48,596 nt of DNA from Candidatus Omnitrophota bacterium. Lineage in GTDB: Bacteria; Omnitrophota; Gorgyraeia; Zapsychrales; Zapsychraceae. The stretch lies in assembly GCA_028280285.1 (NCBI GenBank), contig JANQMA010000019.1:1-48596 (forward strand), read 5' to 3'. A program made the translations under genes and the position numbers. Below the pieces are notes generated by a model. That model worked only from the letters and a program-made list of their open reading frames with translations, was not told where the DNA came from and did not search any database. This document shows positions 5,852 to 35,475 of this stretch, one piece after another; within the stretch, counting starts at the first letter, position 1, and the number at the start of each line of letters is the position of its first letter.

Positions 5852-5928
5852 GATACTCCCTCCTTTGTTTTGGCGGAAGAACCGTTCTTCCGCTTACCGC
5901 CCATATATATGTTTAACCCGCTGCAACA

Positions 5929-5965
5929 AAATAAAACCCAGACCGCACATGAGCGTATCTGGGTA
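5929..5965 (-). terminator. Attenuator terminator in the leader of the 5189-5851 gene
   Basis: Minus strand: ACCCAGA (5959-5965) and TCTGGGT (5937-5943) form the stem base, followed by TTTATTTTG. It lies about 78 bp upstream of the start codon, inside the leader. The sequence TGCGGT in its 3' half can also pair with ACCGCA further upstream (5979-5984), which would break the terminator. Confidence 0.78.
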
Positions 5966-6111
5966 TAAACCAATAGTTGCGGTGTGTACGCTCGGACCCC
6001 CTAAATATTGCTTAGGGGCCGTGGCTTTGCTGACCCAGGTCACCCTGGGATCGCCCCTTATGTGCCCTCACATAAGGCCCGATAACGGGTTTTCACCTAC
6101 ACTCAAGTATA
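5966..6111 (-). ncRNA. Structured leader RNA, possibly a divergent c-di-GMP-I (GEMM) riboswitch
   Basis: A TATACT -10 box (6106-6111, minus) starts a leader of about 140 nt. It contains a CCTTATGTG/CACATAAGG hairpin (6057-6078). A CCCAGG stem (6034-6049) follows, capped by the GNRA loop GTGA, then CAGCAAAGCCACGG (GCAAAGCC at 6023-6030) and a CCCCTAA/TTAGGGG hairpin (5998-6018). A GNRA-capped P2 followed by GCAAAGCC is how GEMM-I aptamers are built. The usual GGGCAAACC is replaced by GGGCGATCC, so the ligand is uncertain. The genuine GEMM at 35385-35475 gives a local comparison. An attenuator terminator lies directly downstream. Confidence 0.55.
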
Positions 6112-35384: not shown

Positions 35385-35475
35385 TTAGTGGCAACTGGCT
35401 ATCCATTTTCAGGACCCTGTAGCTTTGCGTCCCCACCTTTCAGTGGGTTTGCCCTTATCAATACGAGTAACGTTT
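35385..35475 (-). ncRNA. c-di-GMP-I (GEMM) riboswitch aptamer
   Basis: Read on the minus strand: GATAAGGGCAAACC (35447-35460), a short P2 hairpin with GAAA tetraloop (CCACTGAAAGGTGG), GGGACGCAAAGCTACAGGGTCC, then GGATAGCCAGTTGCC. This is the conserved order of GEMM-I aptamers, including the GNRA tetraloop and GCAAAGC core. A terminator follows. It controls the small exported protein gene at 34900-35199. Confidence 0.9.

Follow-up and report, generated by a model that had tools for sequence, protein, structure and literature searches.

The window, by which we mean the whole 48,596-nucleotide stretch of contig JANQMA010000019.1 (Candidatus Omnitrophota bacterium) that was analyzed, carries on its minus strand a small membrane protein gene preceded by a structured leader (Table 1). 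Read 5' to 3', the order is a -10-like box, the P1 5' strand, two small hairpins, a GEMM-I-like core, a linker, a terminator, a hairpin just before the Shine-Dalgarno (SD) sequence, the SD itself and the gene. The transcript probably starts at about 6100-6104, and a scan for consensus sigma-70 promoters found no sites at the leader. The predicted fold of the 187-nt leader exceeds those of shuffled sequences in stability (z -3.8). Many leaders of orthologous genes have an operator-like palindrome (AAAGAAAACGTTTTCTTG type) upstream of the promoter, located at about 6171-6148 in the present window, and many of the same leaders have, some 17 nt ahead of the -10, a CATAGGTG box; the two elements suggest a common transcription factor and perhaps also a non-standard sigma factor.

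The original prediction placed a CmpX/MscS-type membrane protein downstream, and the gene product bears this out: it contains two copies of PF05552, the MscS/CmpX-type transmembrane helix family, matches the NCBIfam mechanosensitive channel model NF033912 with a score below the cut-off, and is weakly similar to E. coli-type MscS structures. A paralogue (44% identical) lies just upstream at 7016-6357, and orthologues or close homologues of the gene occur in about twenty related genomes. Rfam models detected several canonical GEMM-I RNAs in the 2.2-Mb host genome, which also encodes six GGDEF domains and one diadenylate-cyclase (c-di-AMP synthase) domain, and at least two canonical GEMM-I RNAs were present in each of the relatives searched (55 of 55). 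One canonical c-di-GMP-I aptamer lies in the window at 35386-35462 on the minus strand (RF03167, 64.1 bits; with the A47 of ordinary GEMM-I), some 0.7 kb upstream of gene 34667-33990, whose product has a PEP-CTERM-like C-terminal signal and which is followed, as judged by eye, by a full-length MscS-like gene (33835-32759). The window also holds a single reading frame of 7638 codons (9633-32549, minus strand) for a giant protein in which WD40-like repeats and AAA/von Willebrand-like stretches can be seen by eye.

Table 1. Features of the leader and gene, in order of transcription (window coordinates)
Feature	Position	Strand	Basis or remark
-10-like box TATACT, preceded by TGG (putative extended -10)	6106-6111	minus	sequence; inferred
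Leader transcript	about 6104 to 5928	minus	between -10-like box and terminator, ahead of MscS-like gene
P1 5' strand GUGUA, at inferred transcript 5' end	6098-6102	minus	MFE pairing with UACAC 5988-5984
Extra 5' hairpin a, CCCG-UUAU-CGGG	6078-6089	minus	folding; shorter than hairpin b
Extra 5' hairpin b, 9 bp	6056-6077	minus	folding and sequence; abuts G20 equivalent (6055); the extra hairpin of the original prediction
GEMM-I-like aptamer core, 82 nt	5983-6064	minus	best Rfam match c-di-GMP-I-UAU, 30.4 bits, below cut-off 65.9; folding
G20 (6055), P1b G21 C22 (6054-6053), loop strand G23 A24 U25 (6052-6050; canonical AAA)	6050-6055	minus	alignment
P2 with GUGA tetraloop, CCCAGG-GUGA-CCUGGG	6034-6049	minus	alignment and folding
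Loop strand U42 C43 A44 (canonical G-A/G-C), P1b G45 C46, A47 A48 A49	6026-6033	minus	alignment
P3 with 2-nt bulge G82 U83 (5997-5996; canonical A/U-G)	5990-6025	minus	alignment and folding
GAGCGUA, overlapping P3/P1 3' strands	5987-5993	minus	folding; partner UACGCUC (5957-5951) in terminator loop; also in L030, L039
J3/1 and P1 3' strand, G90 U91 A92 C93...	5984-5989	minus	alignment and folding
ACCGCA, alternative partner of UGCGGU 5947-5942	5978-5983	minus	folding; six Watson-Crick pairs
Intrinsic terminator hairpin ACCCAGAU ACGCUC AUGUGCGG UCUGGGU	5936-5964	minus	-16.5 kcal/mol; stem common to L030 and L039
U-tract UUUUAUUUU	5928-5936	minus	sequence
Hairpin just 5' of ribosome-binding site	5873-5893	minus	sequence
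Shine-Dalgarno AAAGGAGGG	5858-5866	minus	sequence
Small MscS-like membrane protein, 220 aa	5189-5851	minus	PF05552 twice; NF033912 below cut-off; weak MscS similarity to PDB chains

Structure and class of the GEMM-I-like core

The description of the leader as GEMM-like and non-canonical stands, with each of the elements originally named present on the minus strand: the GNRA-capped P2, the GCAAAGCCACGG strand (exact at 6030-6019), GGGCGATCC (6056-6048) in place of the expected GGCAAACC, and the extra 5' hairpin. The GEMM-I secondary structure is both the minimum free energy (MFE) and the centroid fold of the isolated core, which has the P1b-loop-P2(GNRA) and the P3 with a 3' bulge that the c-di-GMP-I class requires and is only modestly more stable than its shuffles (z -1.9). 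P1 (GUGUA/UACAC) forms in the MFE fold, and the two extra hairpins separate it from G20.

Positions are numbered as in Vc2, and conserved contacts follow PMC3764141 and PMC4744006, both of which name G20 and A47 (and A48) as ligand contacts of c-di-GMP-I; the inter-helix pair C44-G83 is called universally conserved in PMC4744006. The contacts G20, A47 and A48 are intact in the candidate (G6055, A6028 and A6027), and G21, C22, G32, A35, G45, C46, A49, C59, G79 and G88 are likewise retained. Five substitutions (A23 to G, A25 to U, G42 to U, C44 to A and G83 to U) form one patch comprising the P1b/P2 internal loop and the P2-P3 inter-helix pair, and each replaces a base on which all 74 canonical GEMM-I RNAs of relatives agree, an invariance inflated by the choice of those RNAs for high score. 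The conserved C44-G83 pair is absent, with A6031 and U5996 in its place, which are still Watson-Crick. From this one sequence we suggest a possible A44-U83 pair, together with G23-C43 and A24-U42; the A44-U83 complementarity is weak evidence, as it would arise one time in four by chance and as two RNAs of a distant family (L154 and L155, below) carry A44 without U83. In an ungapped alignment the equivalent of the ligand-pairing C92 is A; in the Rfam alignment it is U, and it becomes C if one base is inserted. A possible alternative alignment would keep C44 and insert an A, as in L157 and L163 (below), with position 83 then U or shifted to G.

Among the Rfam models, c-di-GMP-I-UAU (RF03168) aligned over its whole length at 30.4 bits (cut-off 65.9; E 1.5e-4 for the 2.2-Mb genome), RF01051 and RF03167 scored lower on the leader, and all three scores were under the Rfam gathering cut-offs for c-di-GMP-I (GEMM-I clan, CL00126). 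Of the covariance-model searches proposed with the original prediction, that for GEMM-I thus gave a match below cut-off, whereas those for c-di-GMP-II (GEMM-II) and ydaO/yuaA (c-di-AMP) gave none in the leader at E up to 5. Only the GEMM-I clan emerged from the whole-window and leader Rfam scans, an RF_site3 frameshift match being attributed to chance. A lineage covariance model (R1) built from the 74 canonical RNAs gave 14.0 bits (E 0.2 in 168 kb), which is noise level. By base composition, GC, three bases, a 6-bp GNRA hairpin, three bases and GCAAAGCC would be expected about 9e-5 times per genome by chance, a post hoc figure for a pattern picked after being seen.

Judged on sequence and predicted fold, the leader is probably related to GEMM-I. 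It shares with the c-di-GMP-I/GEMM-I family (RF01051; subclasses RF03168 and RF03167) P1b, a 3x3 internal loop, the GNRA-capped P2, the GCAAAGCC strand, P3 with a 2-nt bulge, G20, A47, A48 and a terminator expression platform, but differs in its GAU/UCA internal loop (not AAA/G(A/G)C), in A44 and U83 (not C44-G83), in the ambiguous C92 equivalent and in the two extra hairpins between P1 and G20. We do not grant it membership in c-di-GMP-I, as the score lies below the cut-off and the leader lacks the C44-G83 pair as well as three loop bases that are invariant in relatives (A23, A25 and G42).

A change of G20 to A marks cGAMP sensing in GEMM-I. Position 20 is A in GEMM-I RNAs from two genomes of the order (L079 and L080) and C in a further GEMM-I RNA (L063); because G20A marks GEMM-Ib, these may be cGAMP riboswitches in Omnitrophota. 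The mark is absent from the candidate, which retains G at position 20, unlike the cGAMP-sensing GEMM-Ib variant of Geobacter, by which ligand change within GEMM-I is a known event (PMC8835794).

Further copies in Omnitrophota and the attenuator of orthologous leaders

The exact core pattern had no second stem-forming copy in 81 order-level Omnitrophota genomes; two other exact matches there lack the stem and are attributed to chance, as are three viral-contig matches without the P2 architecture. A looser A44 pattern applied to 384 phylum-level genomes gave only two other non-canonical stem-forming cases, L154 and L155; L157 and L163 were canonical RNAs with an inserted A, and the remaining matches were judged to be chance. 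A broader pattern applied to one family gave, besides the known G269 and G327 elements, mostly chance-like matches (by eye, on the matched letters only). UAU-class members scored above the cut-off in 2 of 145 phylum genomes, with no link to the candidate. Tandem canonical GEMM-I aptamers a few hundred bases apart recur in the order (L138, L148, L109, L119 and L097).

L154 and L155 have GGCAAU...A-GCAAAGCCACGG in common with the candidate, hence U25 and A44, but differ from it in having A and not U at bulge position 83 and in their otherwise unrelated sequence; the CCGGGCUGCC (C92) at the 3' end is kept in L155 and absent from L154. Both (L154, 1491-1579; L155, 1491-1643; plus strand) have a common AAUAACCG at the P3 3' strand, and they may form a small subclass that precedes a surface-protein-like gene (L154) and pilin-like genes (L155). 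By eye, L155 lies before several small pilin-like genes in a row; such genes are a usual c-di-GMP target, so a new ligand need not be invoked for A44 by itself.

No GEMM was detectable in the scanned leaders of MscS orthologues. With no second core turned up by the pattern searches of the 81 order-level and 384 phylum-level genomes either, the proposal of a new variant class is not supported. Comparison of homologous leaders, also proposed at the outset, did recover the candidate's terminator device in L030 (genome G012) and L039 (G011), from two other genera. The common device consists of GAGCGUA, 24-34 nt, CCAGAU, 0-2 nt, (A/G)CGCUC, the UCUGG arm and a U-tract, and this pattern had six matches in the 81 genomes (the candidate, L030, L039 and three others) compared with one for a reversed control pattern. 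The GAGCGU/CGCUC pairs number seven in the candidate, six in L030 (one G-U) and eight in L039, and one compensated pair differs among the three terminator stems. The attenuators of L030 and L039 are therefore the same as the candidate's in having an upstream GAGCGU complementary to the terminator loop and differ in having no GEMM-like domain 5' of the device. Because orthologues carry the device without GEMM, it does not need GEMM.

The idea of a terminator competing with an anti-terminator is supported, and the ACCGCA/TGCGGT pairing originally put forward for it exists, but that pairing was not seen in L030 or L039 and the one shared with orthologues is GAGCGU/CGCUC, a stronger alternative absent from the original prediction and the better-supported switch. 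In a partial transcript the 5' end UGAGUGUA can, on folding, also pair with UACGCUCA. By sequence and folding, the terminator and the alternative pairings cannot all coexist, and the equilibrium fold always prefers the terminator (-73.6 vs. -61.9 and -65.5 kcal/mol), so that switching would have to be kinetic or ligand-driven. Among the orthologous leaders L029-L039 and L058, most also have a pre-SD hairpin, UCAGC-C(GG/AA)UA...GCUGA, just before AAAGGAGGGG; in L030 its arms are changed but still paired (UCAGUCGG/CCGACUGA), and it appears to be a conserved leader motif in its own right.

Interpretation of the leader

We favor, with a probability of roughly one half, a strongly diverged, ligand-responsive relative of GEMM-I joined to the transcription attenuator of the MscS-like gene and terminating transcription when bound. 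The ligand would most likely be c-di-GMP, the default guess, or a cyclic dinucleotide that contains guanine, since the G20/A47/A48 side is preserved, and the changes in the core are more suggestive of a P2/P3 contact rebuilt from C44-G83 to A44-U83 than of a redesigned binding pocket. In the ligand-folded aptamer, P1 and the base of P3 would sequester the GAGCGUA and 5'-end strands and the terminator hairpin would then form freely, turning expression OFF; without ligand, GAGCGUA (the P1/P3 strand) or the 5' end UGAGUGUA would pair instead with UACGCUC in the terminator loop, and this competing pairing would favor read-through. We infer this direction from the overlap of GAGCGUA with the P3/P1 3' strands, by which aptamer folding would set the terminator loop free. 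With abundant canonical GEMM-I RNAs in the genome and its relatives and six GGDEF domains, both an aptamer source and a ligand are at hand, and the order and strand of the elements (-10 box, aptamer, terminator, SD, gene) are right. Against the GEMM-I-attenuator reading stand the sub-cut-off scores, the five changed invariant bases, the A at the C92 position without gaps, the single sequence, the setting apart of P1 from G20, the use of the terminator device by orthologues that have no GEMM, and the equilibrium preference for the terminator.

Several of these points would also suit a relic, that is, a decayed GEMM-I aptamer whose hairpins survive without ligand binding, attenuation being due to the inherited GAGCGU/CGCUC terminator device alone or to whatever controls the orthologues. 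The loss of five invariant bases and probably of C92, the presence of the device without GEMM in orthologues and the mere 14 bits with the lineage model all agree with decay; however, random decay should have disrupted stems as well, whereas every helix is perfectly paired, the core folds cleanly, G20, A47 and A48 are retained and the altered 44-83 contact is still complementary, and we consider a relic rather doubtful. That the resemblance arose by chance or convergence, in a leader unrelated to GEMM-I, is improbable given the genome-wide E of 1.5e-4, the expectation of 9e-5 for P2 plus GCAAAGCC alone and a location and strand that are those of a riboswitch, even though the Rfam and lineage-model scores are sub-threshold, the orthologous leaders have no GEMM and the region is rich in simple hairpins.

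A further reading, which we regard as very improbable, is a GEMM-I-derived aptamer whose specificity has shifted to another cyclic dinucleotide (cGAMP or c-di-AMP). The ligand-pairing C92 position reads A or U, the genome has a c-di-AMP synthase domain, and c-di-AMP, a nucleotide linked to potassium and osmotic homeostasis (PMC7857571, PMC5919688), would be a fitting signal for an osmotic channel gene; yet position 20 is G and not the cGAMP-type A, most changes lie away from the ligand contacts, the leader has no ydaO match, and no second copy was found in the genomes scanned, so that there is no class. The elaborated proposal of a GEMM-I-derived riboswitch that controls a mechanosensitive-type channel, its C92-side pocket and P2/P3 contact (A44-U83) rebuilt for a different cyclic dinucleotide and the whole grafted onto a pre-existing attenuator, is a similarly long shot. 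The sensing of a related dinucleotide, as first proposed, is possible but unsupported, with G20, A47 and A48 kept, the changes at the P2/P3 contact and an A at the C92 position.

The leader is a single odd variant from one genome, placed on an attenuator that occurs elsewhere in the gene family with no aptamer attached, and not a shown new class. If it binds another dinucleotide, this would be a new specificity. If it binds c-di-GMP, the AAA/GAC loop of GEMM-I and its C44-G83 contact, held to be universal, would both prove replaceable, and the GEMM-I search models, which now miss such RNAs, would be loosened. Set beside the aptamer-less attenuators of its orthologues, the leader would represent the gain of an aptamer on, or its loss from, an existing expression platform.
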